Shown: in pieces, positions 2,125 through 8,157 of the stretch | Numbering within the stretch: the first letter of the stretch is position 1 | Layout of the letters: every line of letters starts with the position of its first letter | DNA from: Xanthobacteraceae bacterium | Lineage (GTDB): Bacteria > Pseudomonadota > Alphaproteobacteria > Rhizobiales > Xanthobacteraceae | Reading direction: 5' to 3' | Assembly: GCA_030037645.1 (NCBI GenBank) | Contig: JASHQI010000110.1 | Span: forward strand, 1-40,310 | Length of the DNA: 40,310 nucleotides | Translations under genes and position numbers: made by a program | The notes under the pieces: generated by a model | Databases searched by the model: none | What the model saw: the letters and a program-made list of their open reading frames with translations, nothing else | What the model was told of the DNA's origin: nothing

Positions 2125-2628
2125 TCAGGAGAACGGATCGTATGGATATCCGGCATAGACCAGATTGGCGCCACTGCCGGTCAGCAGCCGTTCCATCTTC
2201 ACGACCGTTTCGCCAATCACGCTGGCCGGATGGCCGGATTGAATCTGGTGCTTTAGCTCAATGAGTGTCTGATTTGCGCCGTCGAGACGCTGTGCCAGGA
2301 TCGTCGCCACGTAAAAGAGTGCGGCGGGGTCGTGCGTGAGCAGCGTCGCCGCATCGGCGGCATGAAACTCCGAGGTTTCCAAGGCACGCACGTCCGCCGT
2401 ATGCGGCTGATCCAGCAATGCGGACAGCTCGCCGAACACAGCACCAGGCTCCGTTACCGTCGCGATTTCGGTGGAGTCCTTGACGATCGCAACCGCACCT
2501 TTCTTCAGAATCAGCAGCCGTCCGGTCTTCGTGCCGGCGCCGAACACTGTCTCGCCGGCATGAAACGTGGCGACAGGAAGAGTGGTGAGCCGCCCTCTGA
2601 AATCGGCACTGTCGGGTATGACGGGCAT
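2125..2628 (-). CDS. Stand-alone cyclic-nucleotide-binding domain protein
   Basis: The 167-aa product is a single Crp/Fnr-type cNMP-binding domain. It has the beta-roll with FHAGETVFGAGTKTGRLLILKKGAVAIVK, then the phosphate-binding cassette region PGAVFGELSALLDQPHTADVRALE, where GE-L-AL and the following TAxVRA element correspond to the cyclic-nucleotide-contacting loop. A helix follows (about residues 110-160, LAQRLDGANQTLIELKHQ). There is no helix-turn-helix, so it is not a Crp-like transcription factor; such free domains usually act as sensors or partners of another protein. A GGAG ribosome binding site lies about 9 nt before the ATG. A palindrome lies 27-42 nt upstream of the start. It follows the barrel-protein gene region on the same strand but 171 nt away, so an operon is uncertain. 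Confidence 0.8.
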   Translation of the reverse strand: MPVIPDSADFRGRLTTLPVATFHAGETVFGAGTKTGRLLILKKGAVAIVKDSTEIATVTEPGAVFGELSALLDQPHTADVRALETSEFHAADAATLLTHDPAALFYVATILAQRLDGANQTLIELKHQIQSGHPASVIGETVVKMERLLTGSGANLVYAGYPYDPFS

Positions 2629-2654
2629 GTTGAGTGGCTCCGTTTCACGGCCTC

Positions 2655-2670
2655 AGTTACGACCGTAACT
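2655..2670. promoter_or_regulatory. Perfect 7-bp inverted repeat upstream of the cNMP-domain gene
   Basis: AGTTACG, a 2-nt spacer AC, and CGTAACT form a perfect palindrome. It lies between 27 and 42 nt upstream of the ATG at 2628, a plausible operator position. No regulator is identified and a chance occurrence cannot be excluded. Confidence 0.3.
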
Positions 2671-3037
2671 TAAGTCCCCTGACGGCCTTCGAAACATCAC
2701 AGTTTGCGCCTTTTTGACCGTCCCGCAAGGCAGTTGCAGCGGAGACGCACCGTCGCGCGCGGTCTCCGCACGTCAAAGCTTTCGCGACGACCATCGCTAC
2801 TCTCGCCGCTCATTGCTTTGTGACAGCACCGCCGGCCGTCAAGTTTGGAGTCAATGATCTTGGCTCGCGCGTCGCGCCAGCAGAATTGAAGCGCGCCGGG
2901 CGCCCGGACCCGTTTCATCGATAATGCTCGGAATTCGTGGAGGCTCCGGCCCGAGCTGCGGCCAGCGATAATATTGCCGCGCGACAATCCCGCCACTTTG
3001 TGACGTGGATCAATTTCCGCCGGACGGCATTGGTTTT
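2671..3037. other. Intergenic stretch without a recognised gene
   Basis: No convincing gene was seen. A 99-codon minus-strand frame here has an Arg-rich composition typical of a chance frame in high-GC DNA. The promoter of the candidate small RNA should lie at the right end, but I could not identify clear -35 and -10 boxes. Confidence 0.35.
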
Positions 3038-3162
3038 AACCTAGCGGAAGCTAGGTTGACTGGGCGGCTCCCCATCCCCCGACGGTCCCACCGCCCAGTC
3101 AGATAAGCCTAGATGAGGCAACAAACTTAGTAGCCCCGAGCGTATCCCGCTTGGGGTTTTTT
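3038..3162 (+). ncRNA. Candidate structured small RNA
   Basis: Three hairpins follow each other on the plus strand. The first has 8-bp arms at 3038-3045 and 3050-3057 closed by a GGAA (GNRA) tetraloop. The second has perfect 10-bp arms, GACTGGGCGG at 3058-3067 and CCGCCCAGTC at 3091-3100, around a C-rich 23-nt loop (3068-3090) that contains CTCCCC and CCCCCG. The third is a Rho-independent terminator at 3134-3162. Hairpins one and two are directly adjacent and could stack. A C-rich loop that can pair with purine-rich ribosome binding sites, plus an own terminator, is the layout of many trans-acting alphaproteobacterial small RNAs. There is no coding frame fitting this structure and no gene directly downstream, which argues against a riboswitch. 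The 5' end is only estimated. Confidence 0.6.
3134..3162 (+). terminator. Rho-independent terminator of the candidate small RNA
   Basis: CCCCGAGCG (3134-3142) pairs with CGCTTGGGG (3148-3156) through one G-T wobble around a 5-nt loop, followed by six T residues at 3157-3162. The T-tract is on the plus strand, which fixes the direction. Confidence 0.8.
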
Positions 3163-3312
3163 CTGTGGCGATCCTGTGTCCGGGCTCCAGATTTCCACAC
3201 TTTGTGCCCTTTCGGTCACAGCGGGCCACGGAGCGAACAACGGTAAGCGACCACCTGGGCAGGCAAGCAAAGATGGGCCTCGACGCATTTTGCCGCCGCC
3301 TGCACGAAGGAG

Positions 3313-3441
3313 ATGCGTTCAAAACCTCATGTCGAAACCGGCCGCGCCACGGCCGCCAAGACTTATCTGCGTCAAGAAGTCACGATGCACGATGATCCCT
3401 TGGAATGCAGTCGGATCGCGGCTGCACCATCGCCGAAATAA
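3313..3441 (+). CDS. Possible 42-aa small protein, unknown function
   Basis: An ATG at 3313 opens a 42-codon frame, MRSKPHVETGRATAAKTYLR and on to a C-terminal IAAAPSPK. The composition is balanced for a small cytoplasmic protein. GAAGGAG directly abuts the ATG, which is closer than normal, so the start is not well supported. The TAA at 3439-3441 runs straight into a 13-bp hairpin that could end the transcript. I do not recognise the family and coding status is uncertain. Confidence 0.35.
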   Translation: MRSKPHVETGRATAAKTYLRQEVTMHDDPLECSRIAAAPSPK

Positions 3442-3473
3442 TAGGAGGGGCGGTCGCAGTCGCCCCTTCTATT
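3440..3473. terminator. 13-bp hairpin, possible terminator without T-tract
   Basis: AATAGGAGGGGCG (3440-3452) pairs with CGCCCCTTCTATT (3461-3473) with one G-T wobble and an 8-nt loop. There is no run of T after it, so it may stabilise a transcript end or be a repeat rather than an intrinsic terminator. Confidence 0.4.
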
Positions 3474-3949
3474 CGCAGTACGATGCAAAACTTAGAAGCA
3501 AAATTCGAGCGCGGTAAACGCCGTGCATGGAAGACGATTTTACGACTTGATCTGATCGCCCGCGAACAGATCGTTTCATAGAGTGCGGTATTGCACTTTT
3601 TTCATCGCGGCGTTGGGCGTTGCTCTCCGGGCGAAGAACAAATCGGTCTGCACGACCCGGCCGCACCGCTCACCGGGAGCGCATTCGCCCTTCAACGAGG
3701 AGCCGAAATCGAACGCTGCCGGTCGGCCCCGACAACGACAAATCGGCAAGGGTCCAGCCTCCACCGCCGCGATCGACGGTGCGGCGGGGGACTTCGGCAG
3801 GACAGCAGGTTGCGGTTCCGCCAAAAATTCTTCGTTCGGTCCCGTCTCTGCACGCAATTTGTCTTGTGAATGCCACAGAGCGGACCTACGGTTGCATCCG
3901 GGCAAGCAAGTCGTTGGGGAGGAAGAGGGCTGGTTTTGGGAGGAGAGTT
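3474..3949. other. Intergenic stretch without a confident gene
   Basis: Several frames are open on both strands here, as is normal in high-GC DNA, but none has a signal peptide, motif, good ribosome binding site or recognisable family. I treat the 476 nt as non-coding or decayed. The promoter of the 70-aa zinc-ribbon gene should lie at its right end. Confidence 0.35.
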
Positions 3950-4162
3950 ATGGCTCTGCACACCGAGACAACGGCGCGCAGCCGACTGGCCACGTACAAT
4001 AAGAACAGTTGCCCGCAATGCAGCCAATGGCTGCTGGCGCCCACATGGTCGGAATATCTGAGCGAACGGTGTGTGCGGCACACGTGGTCGTGTGATGCAT
4101 GCGGTTACGAATTCGAGACCGCGGTCTTTTTTCCTGCGGTAGCGGCAGCAAAAGCTGCTTAG
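3950..4162 (+). CDS. Small zinc-ribbon protein, 70 aa
   Basis: The ATG at 3950 follows an AGGAGAG ribosome binding site at 3941-3947, which sets the start although the frame is open further upstream. The 70-aa product has two Cys pairs, SCPQCSQWLL at residues 20-29 and WSCDACGYEFETAVFF at 46-61, arranged as a CxxC-x22-24-CxxC zinc ribbon, with a conserved-looking APTWSEYLSERCVRHTW between them. Small proteins of this kind are common in Bradyrhizobium relatives and have no assigned role; nucleic-acid or protein binding is only a guess. It converges with epmB, whose stop is 21 nt away. Confidence 0.75.
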   Translation: MALHTETTARSRLATYNKNSCPQCSQWLLAPTWSEYLSERCVRHTWSCDACGYEFETAVFFPAVAAAKAA

Positions 4163-4183: not shown

Positions 4184-5257
4184 TCATCGTTCGAGGCCCC
4201 CGTCGCGATGCGATCGCGGTGGATAGTGGTGTCGTCTGCCGTTGAAGTCTTCGATGGTCGCGCCGTTGCGACCGAGATAGCTCGGTCCAATTGGCGACTT
4301 GCCGTAACCGCCGGGAATGTCGAGCACATAGGCGGGCTGGCACAGCCCCGAATAGCGGCCGCGGAGTGCGCGCATCAGGGCTTGGCCGGTCGCGATAGTG
4401 GTCCGCAGGTGCGCCGTGCCGGGCGCGAGATCCGCATGATGCAGGTAATAGGGTTTGATGCGGCATTCGACCAATGACCGCAGCAAGGCGCCCAGCGTCT
4501 CGGCGTCGTCGTTCACTCCGCGCAGCAGCACCGATTGCGACAGCATCGGAATGCCGGCATCGACCAAGCGCGCGCAGGCAGCGCGCACCTTTGCGGTCAG
4601 CTCGCGTGGGTGATTGGCATGCAGCACCACGAAGGTCGCCTTGTCGGTCCGCAGCGCGCGCACCGTTGCCGCCGTCACCCGTTCCGGCGCCGCCACCGGA
4701 ACGCGGGTGTGCACGCGGATCACCTTGACATGGTCGATCGCTGACAGCCGGCTCACGACATCCTTGAGCCGGCGGGGCGAGAGCACGAGTGGATCGCCCC
4801 CCGTCAAGATGACTTCCCAGACTTGCGGACAATCCCGGATGTAGTCGAGAGCGGTCGCGAGCGCCGCGGGCGATAGCGCTCCCCTGCCCTTGCCCGCCCC
4901 GACCATCTCGCGCCGAAAGCAGAACCGGCAATAGACCGCACAGATATTGACGAGCTTGAGCAGCACGCGGTCGGGATAGCGATGCACGATGCCTTCGACC
5001 GGGCTTCGCACCGCGTCGCCGATCGGATCACGGCTCTCTTGCGGCTGGTGCCGAAGCTCACGGGCATCGGGCACGAACTGCCGGGCGATCGGATCGTGGG
5101 GATCGGTCGGATCGATCAAGTCGGCAATGGCCGGCGTTATCGCCACTGCGTAGCGGGCGGCGACCGCCTGCAGCGCGGCAATCGGCTCGCGGGCGACGAA
5201 CTGTGCATCGCCGAGCGCGGTCGGCGTGTGCAAGGATTTGTTGCTGACGGCACTCAT
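4184..5257 (-). CDS. epmB: EF-P beta-lysylation radical SAM enzyme EpmB (lysine 2,3-aminomutase family)
   Basis: The 357-aa product is a short lysine 2,3-aminomutase homologue. It has the radical-SAM cluster Cys residues C106, C110 and C113 in NICAVYCRFCFRRE, the GGDPL motif (LTGGDPLVLS), and the PLP-binding lysine K320 in DIPGGYGKSPIGPSY. EpmB converts (S)-alpha-lysine to (R)-beta-lysine, which EpmA then attaches to elongation factor P. Length agrees with EpmB (about 340) rather than with the longer catabolic aminomutases. The assignment is strengthened by epmA and efp within 4 kb. A GAGG ribosome binding site lies 6 nt before the ATG. It is divergent from the ThDP gene, with 133 nt between them that must hold both promoters. 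It is a catabolic lysine aminomutase only if the nearby genes are ignored. Confidence 0.93.
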   Translation of the reverse strand: MSAVSNKSLHTPTALGDAQFVAREPIAALQAVAARYAVAITPAIADLIDPTDPHDPIARQFVPDARELRHQPQESRDPIGDAVRSPVEGIVHRYPDRVLLKLVNICAVYCRFCFRREMVGAGKGRGALSPAALATALDYIRDCPQVWEVILTGGDPLVLSPRRLKDVVSRLSAIDHVKVIRVHTRVPVAAPERVTAATVRALRTDKATFVVLHANHPRELTAKVRAACARLVDAGIPMLSQSVLLRGVNDDAETLGALLRSLVECRIKPYYLHHADLAPGTAHLRTTIATGQALMRALRGRYSGLCQPAYVLDIPGGYGKSPIGPSYLGRNGATIEDFNGRRHHYPPRSHRDGGLER

Positions 5258-5390: not shown

Positions 5391-7088
5391 ATGAAGAATT
5401 ATATGGACGGCGGAGAAGCGATCCTGGAGGCGTTCCGCAAGCTGAAGATCGACTACATCATGTCATCTCCGGGATCGGAATGGTCGCCGATCTGGGAAGC
5501 CCTGGTGAGACAAAAAGTCGGTAACCGGCAGGGCCCCACATACATCGACTCCTGGCACGAGACGCTCGCCGTCAATATGGCGACCGGCTACACCCTGATC
5601 ACCGGCCGCCCGCAAGCCGTCCTGGTTCACGCCGGCGTCGGGCTGTTGCAAGGCAGCATGGGCGTGCACGGCGCGCTCCAGTCCGAAGTCCCGATGATCG
5701 TCATGTCGGGTGAATCGCAGACGCTCGGCGAAAACCCCGATCTCGACATCGAGCAGCAATGGTACGGCGGCATCAGCGTCGGCGGCGCCGAGCGCTACGT
5801 CGAGAACATCACCAAATGGGCGCGGCAGGTGACCAGCCCCTACACGCTGTATGAGACCGTGATCCGTGCCGGCGAAATGGCGCAGCGCACGCCGAAAGGA
5901 CCGATCTATCTCAACGTCGCCCTCGAGCACATGCTGCACGACTGGACGCCGCCGGCCAACGAGCGCGACGTGCCGTTCGCACCGCACGTGCAACCGCATC
6001 CCAGCGAAGTGGAGAAAATCGCGTCACTCCTCTTGGCTGCAAAAAATCCCATCATTGTCGCCGAGCAGTCCGGCCGCGATCCCGCGGCCTTCAAGGCGCT
6101 GGTCGATCTGGCCGACCTGCTTGGGATTCCGGTGACCTGGGGCCGCGGCGCGAACTTTGCCAATTTCCCCACCAATCATCCGCTCTATCTCGGCGTCGCG
6201 AACTATAAACACCTCGCGGATGCCGATCTCATCCTTCTGGTTGGCGGACGCATCCCTTGGTATCCGCCGCACGTGCGCCCGAGCAAGGGCAAGATCGTTT
6301 CGATCAACGAAAATCAGTTCAAGGGCCACATGATCTATCAGCAGCTACATGCTGACGCTTATCTCGAAGGCGAGATTGCCGCCTCGCTGCAAATGCTGGC
6401 GCAGGCCGCGCGCGCCTCGAAGATCGACGCCGAAGCGGTCAAGCGGCGCCGCGAGAAATGGACACGCGAGCACGACGCCGTCGTTGCCGCCCTCAACGCC
6501 GAGAAGGCCAAGGCCCGCGGCAACGGCAAGGCGATCGATCCGCTCGAACTGATCGCCACGCTCGGCGAGACCATGCCGGCCGATACGATCTACGTCGACG
6601 AGACCATCCTGCATGGCCCGGTGCTGCGCCAGCATCTGCCCTTCACCACGCCGCAGAGCTTTTTCCGCGGCTTCGGCGGACTCGGCCAGGGCATCGGCAC
6701 CGCGCTCGGCGTCAAGCTCGCCGCGCCCGAGCGGCCGGTTGCACTGCTCATCGGCGACGGCGGCTTCCTCTACAATCCGGTGATACAGGCGCTCGGCGCC
6801 TCGAAGCAGCACAAGCTGCCGATCCTGATCGTGATCTTCAACAACAAGGGCTACATGGCGATGCAGAAAGGCCACGTCCATCACTATCCGGACGGTGCCG
6901 CCGTGAATGCCAAGATCCATCTCGGCTCGAAACTCAATGGTTTCGATTACGCCGAACTTGGTGCGCATTTCGATCTTCACGGTGAACGCGTGGAGCAGTC
7001 GGACAAGCTCAAAAGCGCGCTGCAGGCGGCGTTGAAGAAAGTGCAGGACGGCACGACGGCCATCCTCAATGTGGTCGTCAGCCGATAA
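5391..7088 (+). CDS. Thiamine-diphosphate-dependent enzyme (acetolactate synthase / 2-oxoacid decarboxylase superfamily)
   Basis: The 565-aa product has the three-domain layout of the ThDP superfamily. The N-terminal Pyr domain carries the cofactor-activating Glu57 in DSWHETLAVNMATGY. A central domain covers about residues 190-330. The C-terminal PP domain has the GDG...NN motif, G455-D456-G457 to N484-N485 in VIFNNKGYMAMQKGHVHH. The reaction should be decarboxylation or carboligation of a 2-oxoacid in the cytoplasm; the substrate cannot be read from the sequence. The ATG at 5391 is preceded by TAAGGA about 8 nt upstream, and the frame upstream of it has no family features. It sits inside the EF-P modification locus, convergent with epmA (19 nt apart), and shares no obvious role with its neighbours. 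A second, clearly divergent member lies at 13293-15101. Confidence 0.85.
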   Translation: MKNYMDGGEAILEAFRKLKIDYIMSSPGSEWSPIWEALVRQKVGNRQGPTYIDSWHETLAVNMATGYTLITGRPQAVLVHAGVGLLQGSMGVHGALQSEVPMIVMSGESQTLGENPDLDIEQQWYGGISVGGAERYVENITKWARQVTSPYTLYETVIRAGEMAQRTPKGPIYLNVALEHMLHDWTPPANERDVPFAPHVQPHPSEVEKIASLLLAAKNPIIVAEQSGRDPAAFKALVDLADLLGIPVTWGRGANFANFPTNHPLYLGVANYKHLADADLILLVGGRIPWYPPHVRPSKGKIVSINENQFKGHMIYQQLHADAYLEGEIAASLQMLAQAARASKIDAEAVKRRREKWTREHDAVVAALNAEKAKARGNGKAIDPLELIATLGETMPADTIYVDETILHGPVLRQHLPFTTPQSFFRGFGGLGQGIGTALGVKLAAPERPVALLIGDGGFLYNPVIQALGASKQHKLPILIVIFNNKGYMAMQKGHVHHYPDGAAVNAKIHLGSKLNGFDYAELGAHFDLHGERVEQSDKLKSALQAALKKVQDGTTAILNVVVSR

Positions 7089-7107: not shown

Positions 7108-8157
7108 TTAGTCCGGGTGCGGCGTCCACAGCACCTGGTCAATCCGCGAGGCGCCCGTTACCAGCATGACCAAGCGGTCGAGGCCGAGCGCGATGCCACA
7201 GGCCTGAGGCATTTGCGCCAGCGCGGCCAAAAAATCTTCGTCGATCGGGTAGCGCTCGCCATACCGGCGTTGCTTCTCCGCCATCTCCGCTTCGAGGCGA
7301 CGGCGCTGCTCGGGAGCGTCGGTGAGCTCGCCAAAGCCGTTGGCGAGCTCGACGCCGCAAACATACAGCTCAAAGCGCTCGGCGACGCGCGGATCGCGCG
7401 CCGGACGCGCCAACGCAGCCTGCACCGCGGGATACTCATCGAGAATTGTCGGTCGACCGATGCCGAGTTTTTGCTCGATGCGCTCCACCAGCACGCGGCT
7501 GAAAATGTCGCCCCAGCGGTCGTCATCGGCGATGCGAATGCCGGACTGTTGTGCCGCACGGGCGAGCCGACCGCGGTCTGGTTTATTGTTCGGCAGCGTT
7601 GCCAACAAATCGATGCCGGCGAAGCGCGCAAATGCTTCCGCCACCGTGAGCCGCTCGGGCGCGGCGAAAGGATCGGCCGCGCGGCCACGAAAGCGCAGCT
7701 CTCGCGTCCCAACCGCCCGCGCCGCCTCGGCCAGGATCGCCGCGCAGTCGGTCATCAGCGTCTGGTACGGCTCGCCGGCGCGATACCATTCGACGAGAGT
7801 AAATTCCGGAGAATGAAGTGCGCCCCGTTCGCGGTTGCGAAACACTTTGGCGAATTCGACAATGCGCTGTTCGCCGGCCGCGAGAAGCTTTTTGCAGGCA
7901 AATTCCGGCGAAGTGCGCAGATAAAGCGGCGATGCCGTCCCAGCGGGCGCGACCAACGTGGTGGCGAAGGCATGCAAGTGAGCCTCGTTCCCGGGCGAAG
8001 CCTGCAAGGCCCCGGTCTCAACCTCCACGAAATCGCTATGGCCAAACCATGCGCGCAACGCCGCAACGATCCGCCCCCGCGCCAGCAGCGCCGGCCGGCG
8101 GTCGGCATGCACGTGGGGGGCCCAAAACGGCGAGGAACGAGGTGGAGAGTCCGGCAT
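7108..8157 (-). CDS. epmA: EF-P--(R)-beta-lysine ligase EpmA (truncated lysyl-tRNA synthetase homologue)
   Basis: The 349-aa product is a class II aminoacyl-tRNA synthetase catalytic core without the anticodon-binding domain, the hallmark of EpmA (GenX/PoxA/YjeA). Motif 2 is FRNRERGALHSPEFTLVEWY (residues about 122-141) and motif 3 is GIALGLDRLVML near the C-terminus. VELANGFGELTDAPEQ matches the lysine-pocket region of lysyl-tRNA synthetases. It activates beta-lysine with ATP and transfers it to the EF-P lysine. Efp is divergently transcribed 263 nt away, and epmB lies downstream on the same strand beyond the ThDP gene. Genuine LysRS proteins are about 500 aa, so that alternative is unlikely. 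Confidence 0.93.
   Translation of the reverse strand: MPDSPPRSSPFWAPHVHADRRPALLARGRIVAALRAWFGHSDFVEVETGALQASPGNEAHLHAFATTLVAPAGTASPLYLRTSPEFACKKLLAAGEQRIVEFAKVFRNRERGALHSPEFTLVEWYRAGEPYQTLMTDCAAILAEAARAVGTRELRFRGRAADPFAAPERLTVAEAFARFAGIDLLATLPNNKPDRGRLARAAQQSGIRIADDDRWGDIFSRVLVERIEQKLGIGRPTILDEYPAVQAALARPARDPRVAERFELYVCGVELANGFGELTDAPEQRRRLEAEMAEKQRRYGERYPIDEDFLAALAQMPQACGIALGLDRLVMLVTGASRIDQVLWTPHPD

Follow-up and report, generated by a model that had tools for sequence, protein, structure and literature searches.

The window, by which we mean the whole 40,310-base stretch of DNA that was analyzed, contains one copy of a genus-wide family of small RNA (sRNA) genes, and the C-rich hairpin loop of this family recurs in tailed-phage contigs on stems that look unrelated to one another. 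We hold with high confidence that this is a real sRNA gene family. As an account of all the observations together, we consider it moderately probable that the RNA acts in trans by base pairing, that it had an ancestral role in stress, and that phages mimic its loop. The analysis yields a covariance-backed hairpin family spanning several genera of one bacterial family, together with a promoter difference in one of those genera.

The sRNA gene in the window

The window corresponds to contig C185 of a 4.57-Mb draft genome, which holds a second copy of the gene on contig C173. The features of the window copy and its surroundings are as follows.

3050..3164, forward strand: sRNA gene of about 115 nt, with approximate limits; a diverged paralog within the genus-wide family
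3037..3042, forward strand: putative -10 box TAACCT, at the position homologous to TATTTT/TATCTA/TATGTA of other copies; no good -35 in the window copy
3038..3057, no strand assigned: 8-bp inverted repeat with a GGAA loop (arms 3038-3045 with 3050-3057, loop 3046-3049)
3051-3055 CTAGG with 3108-3112 CCTAG, forward strand: alternative long-range helix, sharing the left arm of the GCCT..AGGC hairpin
3057..3101, forward strand: C-rich-loop hairpin, 11-bp stem (3057-3067 with 3091-3101) and 23-nt loop (3068-3090), from fold and covariation
3074..3083, forward strand: loop core ATCCCCCGAC, from the alignment of copies
3107..3119, forward strand: small hairpin GCCT-AGATG-AGGC followed by a conserved AAC, local form
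3132..3162, forward strand: Rho-independent terminator, 11-bp stem and six T, from a terminator scan
2125..2628, reverse strand: neighboring gene for a cyclic-nucleotide-binding domain protein, 167 aa (Pfam PF00027, E = 8.1e-14)
3950..4162, forward strand: neighboring gene for a small cysteine-rich (zinc-ribbon-like) protein, 70 aa (sub-cutoff Pfam matches only)
4184..5257, reverse strand: neighboring gene for a lysine 2,3-aminomutase-type radical SAM protein (PF04055, E = 2.7e-10; LAM_C, E = 1.8e-5, just under cutoff)

A covariance model, R1, built from 23 copies of the genus, matches positions 3048-3164 of the window with 95.3 bits (E = 1.9e-22), the window sequence being itself one of the 23 rows; the window copy is also matched by DNA to same-genus copies. 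The region 3038-3168 folds at -59.6 kcal/mol, compared with a shuffle mean of -39.8 (z -4.95), and none of 200 shuffles is as low. The terminator consists of AGCCCCGAGCG-TATCC-CGCTTGGGGTT followed by T up to 3162, in a region where the scan found 4 terminator-like sites in 1,401 bases and shuffles expect 1.6.

A preliminary description of this DNA had proposed an sRNA made of three consecutive hairpins and ending in its own terminator with six T. All three hairpins are present in the sequence, the terminator scan identifies 3132-3162 as a strong intrinsic terminator, and the proposed gene is borne out by the genus-wide family, with its compensatory changes and terminator. The C-rich loop is indeed 23 nt long; the stem around it, given as a perfect 10 bp, measures 11 bp. 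The small GCCT..AGGC hairpin and the possible long-range helix come in addition to the hairpins described there. That the RNA belongs to no named Rfam family was likewise confirmed: across all 40,310 bases of the window nothing reached a gathering threshold, which rules out a known Rfam family, and a search of 2900-3400 returned three chance-level matches (best E = 1.5).

One element of the preliminary description is moved out of the transcript. The hairpin with a GGAA (GNRA) loop had been counted as part of the RNA. This repeat is absent from all 22 other genus copies and overlaps the putative -10 box, standing where the homologs have their TTGCAT-N15..17-TATNT promoter, and we therefore reject it as part of the transcript. 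It is probably a DNA dyad over the promoter, outside the RNA. With the -10 box at 3037-3042, the RNA would start at about 3048-3052, as judged from the position of the promoter in the homologs, and this start would split the GGAA repeat.

A sigma-70 consensus scan of 2600-4000 gave no promoter-like site. In the alignment of copies, the window loop reads GGTCCCA after its core where the usual loop reads ACACCCC, and the draft genome contains only two CCCNTCCCCCGAC sites, which are the two family copies. Loop and promoter have both drifted in the window copy, and this diverged paralog may be weakly expressed or decaying. A stronger version makes the window copy a pseudogene, a dying duplicate whose active counterpart is the copy next to the NAD-glutamate dehydrogenase (NAD-GDH) gene; this version is compatible with our preferred explanation of the family, and we think it somewhat unlikely. 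It would account for the lack of any -35 resemblance, for the alteration of the loop after GAC, and for the absence of a CACTAA..CGTGA box that is found in 17 of the 22 copies other than the window's; in addition, none of five other genus copies checked adjoins the window's neighbor genes. However, the window copy keeps an intact stem, in which an exchange of C-G for T-A is compensated, as well as an intact terminator and loop core.

Elsewhere in the window, the radical SAM aminomutase-type protein and a class II tRNA-synthetase-like protein flank a thiamine-diphosphate enzyme (4184-5257, 5391-7088 and 7108-8157); the two flanking proteins resemble EpmB and EpmA of EF-P modification. A small frame containing AANIAKLPEL lies at 677-737, about 2.4 kb from the RNA, and small frames with the same string adjoin RNA copies in L072 (4631, 4918) and L127 (6940, 7604).

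A genus-wide family with covarying helices

All 20 same-genus genomes examined contain at least one family match, 19 of them by DNA search and the twentieth (G018) by R1. The R1 list at E <= 0.01 comprises 19 genomes of the genus, each with between one and four matches, some of them weak; G015, which is matched by DNA, is missing from that list. The exact 18-base loop occurs in 37 contigs of GTDB r220: in 22 it sits on a stem, and these correspond to genus genomes, while the other 15 come from other organisms and none has a stem. The C173 copy sits between the NAD-GDH gene, which is convergent to it, and a TauE-type gene; the NAD-GDH gene also adjoins the copies in L081 and L082. Five further copies (L066, L069, L070, L073, and L074) lie beside none of the nine neighbor genes tested, which were drawn from the window and C173.

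Across the 23 copies, the hairpin, terminator, and long-range helix together show changes on both sides in 11 of 26 pairs, a result given by none of 500 shuffles. The terminator helix contributes both-side changes in 3 of 9 pairs, with 98.5% of cells paired, and the long-range helix in 3 of 6 pairs, with 89.1% of cells paired. This long-range helix, UUAGGC/GCCUAA, competes with the local GCCU..AGGC hairpin, which is nearly invariant. When the C-rich hairpin is compared across genera, 8 of its 10 pairs have changed on both sides, and again no shuffle out of 500 reaches that number. Compensatory changes, the support to which the preliminary description had pointed, are thus found in both the C-rich hairpin and the terminator. 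In the alignment of host copies, about 20 nt of the loop are invariant, on a stem that varies.

Upstream of most copies, TTGCATC-like and TATNT-like hexamers stand 15-17 nt apart and are followed by ATTAGGCC, as judged by eye. The host copies combine a promoter, a terminator, and covarying helices as one unit, and for this reason we do not favor a REP-like or integrated DNA element as the sole account.

The promoter regions also contain other symmetric sequences. In L010, L012, L021, and L024 a palindrome, AATGCG-TGATC-CGCATT, overlaps the -35 region; near forms occur in other copies and none in the window copy. This palindrome is probably the operator for some regulator. Dyads of other sequence surround the -10 region in L006, L008, L016, and L029 (by eye). 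Two arrangements depart from the usual one: in L074, one copy of genome G019, a tandem pair of C-rich-loop hairpins precedes a single terminator (about 5050-5150, by eye), and in L075 of genome G017 the same loop tops a long, phage-like hairpin without the sRNA architecture (about 5000-5060). Near the L075 hairpin lies a gene for a C25 peptidase with a ricin-type lectin domain, and the three proteins scanned there match no phage family. The titles, abstract openings, and passages of the open-licence PMC literature that were covered contain no description of the RNA or of its phage loops.

A related hairpin and EcfG promoters in sister genera

A second model, R2, describes the hairpin alone and was built from 15 host sequences of several genera, with no viral sequences. 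It matches 55 of 248 genomes of the bacterial family at E <= 0.05, of which 36 lie outside the genus; seven of those 36 gave R2 rows. The 36 genomes include those with matches in g30 (L319, L320) and g22 (L323), which look unlike the family, and with one unfetched match in g9; none of these is relied on, and the three fetched ones are also counted within the 20 loci described below. Among 385 genomes of the class, R2 gave two matches, one being the window's own genome and the other weak, and a class-wide family at the sequence level is thus unsupported.

Twenty loci from 18 of the 36 R2-matched genomes outside the genus made up the set for a promoter test. The EcfG consensus, GAAC-N16,17-C/GGTT as given in passages of PMC4814048, is present within 130 nt upstream in 14 of these 20 loci, compared with 349 of 20,000 random stretches from the same loci (1.7%); GGAACC had been noticed upstream before the test was run. 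The same promoter is found in none of ten copies comprising eight from the genus, the window's included, and two from g8. PhyR is encoded in the fetched flanks of three of the 20 other-genus loci, all of genus g11: 0.8 kb away in L310 (Pfam PhyR), about 4 kb away in L306, and about 5 kb away in L313, where the match covers 47 residues at the end of the stretch. NepR stands beside PhyR in L310 (Pfam NepR, E = 3.5e-10), and L306 has a similar frame. No match to PhyR was obtained in the 40-kb window or in L080-L082. The loops of the sister genera differ outside the C runs.

From these sequence comparisons, a homologous hairpin appears to stand behind a sigma-EcfG (general stress response) promoter in sister genera, and for that reason the RNA probably had an ancestral role in the general stress response. 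The genus of the window would then have changed the promoter and duplicated the gene, the window copy being one diverged duplicate.

Likeness to known sRNAs and proposed base pairing

Passages of PMC5869019 describe GsrN as a sigma-T/EcfG-dependent Caulobacter sRNA in which a C-rich 5' loop pairs with G-rich mRNA. The target sites printed there include GUCGGGGGUG, GGGUCGGGGG, and similar sequences; the C. crescentus gsrN gene is distal to the phyR-nepR-ecfG locus; and GsrN-like RNAs outside the Caulobacteraceae are proposed from published expression data, promoter, and position (PMC5869019). The present family shares with GsrN an exposed C-rich loop, and the pulled-down GsrN targets in those passages are GUCGGGGG-type sites, the complement of CCCCCGAC. 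In addition, the sister genera have the EcfG promoter, and phyR lies near the three g11 loci. The g11 copies combine the promoter, position, and C-rich loop by which, alongside evidence of transcription, GsrN-like RNAs are recognized in the same passages (PMC5869019). The window copy has a C-rich loop complementary to the G-rich sites quoted there, at 3074-3083 (ATCCCCCGAC), a likeness of complementarity only; it has no EcfG promoter, and no PhyR match marks a phyR-nepR-ecfG locus within the 40 kb of the window. Unlike GsrN, the RNA of the window's genus lacks an EcfG promoter in the copies tested, is present in several copies per genome, holds a long invariant loop on a variable stem, and shares that loop with phages. 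The likeness is one of logic and may or may not reflect homology.

We propose that the gene encodes a trans-acting sRNA of about 115 nt, transcribed from a sigma-70-type promoter that is degenerate in the window copy, with the C-rich-loop hairpin followed by a short hairpin or linker and the intrinsic terminator. The stem would hold the loop core CCCCCGAC single-stranded, and CCCCCGAC would most likely seed pairing with G-rich, GUCGGGGG-like mRNA sites near ribosome-binding sites or in leaders, a choice that follows the complementarity of GsrN targets to CCCCCGAC. Such pairing would change the translation or stability of the mRNAs, as Caulobacter GsrN does. By this analogy, it is plausible that the C-rich loop pairs with G-rich sequences or with ribosome-binding sites, the latter as the preliminary description had suggested.

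The seed GTCGGGGGAT has 75 sites in the 20 genomes, of which 50 lie outside the RNA loci (all 50 were fetched); some of these are directly followed by possible start codons, as in L360, L370, and L352. With this single seed no genus-wide target was found, there being only two orthologous pairs among the 50 sites. The reversed GTCGGGGGAT pattern gave 15 sites against the 75, a comparison of limited use in coding DNA, for which the reversed pattern, with its TAG, is a poor control.

C-rich hairpin loops are also a feature of the CcsR or cuckoo RNAs of Rhodobacter and other Alphaproteobacteria, which the window RNA resembles in this respect. Their loop motif, CCUCCUCCC, is absent from the window loop. 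The latter reads CTCCCCATCCCCCGACGGTCCCA and contains no CCTCCTCCC, and context and taxon differ as well. The Bradyrhizobium sRNAs BjsR and BjrC come from a related genus and some of them are multicopy, according to passages of PMC5082802 and PMC4842269; neither R1 nor R2 matched any genome of g24, taken as Bradyrhizobium.

The loop on hairpins in tailed-phage contigs

The exact loop occurs nine times in eight IMG/VR contigs. A relaxed loop pattern finds 67 contigs with 61 distinct sites, and a flanking stem is present at z <= -3 in 9 of these and at z <= -2 in 13 (L164, near z -3, is counted within the 13). When the full loop, CCC[AG]TCCCCCGACACCCC, is required, hairpins at z <= -2 are found at 10 of 13 sites in tailed-phage contigs; as for the other three, L125 (near-copy L130) and one L127 site have interrupted stems and L133 has none. 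As controls, the reversed relaxed pattern gave stems at none of 35 sites at z <= -3 and at one of 35 at z <= -2, and the loops of g11/g38 and g34 gave none at 25 sites at z <= -2, near-duplicates included. A like-for-like Fisher test of the relaxed pattern (9/61 against 0/35 at z <= -3) gives p = 0.024, weaker than the full-loop contrast. A further scan added L225, L232, L273 and, more weakly, L222. Two contigs with some stem, L240 (z -5.2 at only -11.2 kcal/mol) and L243 (z -2.5), have loops further from the family and were left uncounted.

Each of the 17 viral contigs searched with R2 gives a match, at E < 0.05 in 15 cases and at 0.067 and 0.077 in L186 and L126; these contigs were chosen for the loop, so only the stem part of each match is independent. 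Between most contigs the stems look unrelated by eye. L123, L186, and L225 are related to one another, and L125 and L130 share 92% identity. Terminase large subunits of at least three kinds are encoded on the hairpin contigs, as are portal, integrase, and recombination genes.

We consider it very improbable that the gene is an ordinary lineage-specific sRNA and the phage hairpins are unrelated to it, for instance as chance C-rich-loop structures of high-GC phages. It is true that C-rich loops favor single strands in GC-rich DNA and that, under the relaxed pattern, 52 of the 61 sites lie above z -3 and 48 above z -2. The contrast between the full-loop sites and both controls speaks against chance, however, as do the stemless GTDB loop matches outside the genus and the match of a host-only model to every one of the viral contigs, though these were chosen for the loop.

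An origin in phages, in which the genus captured a phage regulatory hairpin, gave it a promoter and a terminator, and then duplicated it, is also improbable, if less so. Within the scanned collections, a stem under the exact 18-base loop was found only in the genus and in viral contigs; two of the latter, L127 and L156, contain sRNA-like copies (by eye); and the genus genomes have one to four matches each at scattered sites. Yet a homologous hairpin with an EcfG promoter occurs in several sister genera, so that the RNA of the hosts seems to predate the genus-specific loop, and prophage regions of other genera with kin of the L123 terminase lack the hairpin. This terminase has no relative in the 20 genus genomes at E <= 1e-10 and has relatives in 5 of the 248 family genomes at E <= 1e-40, all in other genera (g8, g13, g26, g34, and g37). 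R2 gave no match with E < 1 in the 8- to 20-kb regions around these five; the g8 region covered only 8 kb, and g8 has a related hairpin in two genomes. Within this terminase lineage, the hairpin is close by in L123, L186, and L225 and absent from the five prophage-like regions, a pattern that fits host-specific mimicry and is no proof of it.

The loop is conserved over some 20 nt, more than a seed usually spans, which argues against pairing and would also fit a protein-binding loop. The loop might then be a binding site for a host protein, such as an RNA chaperone, a nuclease, or a polymerase-associated factor; the sRNA would be a carrier or sponge, and the phage hairpins would either compete as decoys or recruit the protein in cis to phage transcripts. 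In keeping with this, some 20 nt are fixed while the stems are unrelated, and of 18 viral sites only two, L129 and the one on the L127 minus strand, have a terminator by a strict pattern after the hairpin, so that many may act in cis; the strict pattern also failed to detect terminators in L069 and in the plus-strand copy of L127. We nevertheless judge protein binding unlikely, given that the sister-genus loops differ outside the C runs and that pairing of a C-rich loop with GUCGGGGG-type targets has a precedent in passages of PMC5869019.

Under the preferred reading, base pairing with mRNA, the phage loops would most simply be mimics acting on the same targets as the sRNA. Such mimicry, which the sequence controls support, is the surprising part of the analysis. 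More tentatively, and short of an even chance, we suggest that unrelated tailed phages each built the genus-specific loop of a stress-type sRNA on stems of their own, thereby entering the host's post-transcriptional stress network, and that the host genus took the RNA out of EcfG control and increased its copy number. Should the phage loops share the targets of the sRNA, they would be natural, independent replicates of the recognition element, and the features kept by all of them would define the functional loop; phages would then copy the recognition sequence of a host sRNA, beyond merely carrying prophage sRNAs. A related case is AgvB, described in passages of PMC12197685 as a prophage sRNA that counters the host sRNA GcvB by target mimicry. 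In both, a phage RNA would enter a host sRNA circuit through mimicry; whereas AgvB, as described in those passages, mimics targets of the host sRNA, the present phages carry the host sRNA's own loop. Searches for named phages and plasmids similar to the RNA gave chance-level matches only (best E = 1 and 0.09).

Several of the viral contigs have further features. In L124, the reading frame of a DNA methyltransferase gene contains the hairpin. In L123, L225, and L186, the 5' arm of the loop hairpin can pair just upstream instead, making switch-like alternatives possible (by eye). The hairpin-bearing phage contig L273 encodes, at 5475-6182, a HisKA_2-type histidine kinase, a class that includes sensors of the alphaproteobacterial general stress response. 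Finally, the 120-kb hairpin phage contig L169 encodes, at 2598-3080, a protein with a sub-cutoff match to GcrA, which hints at an alphaproteobacterial host.
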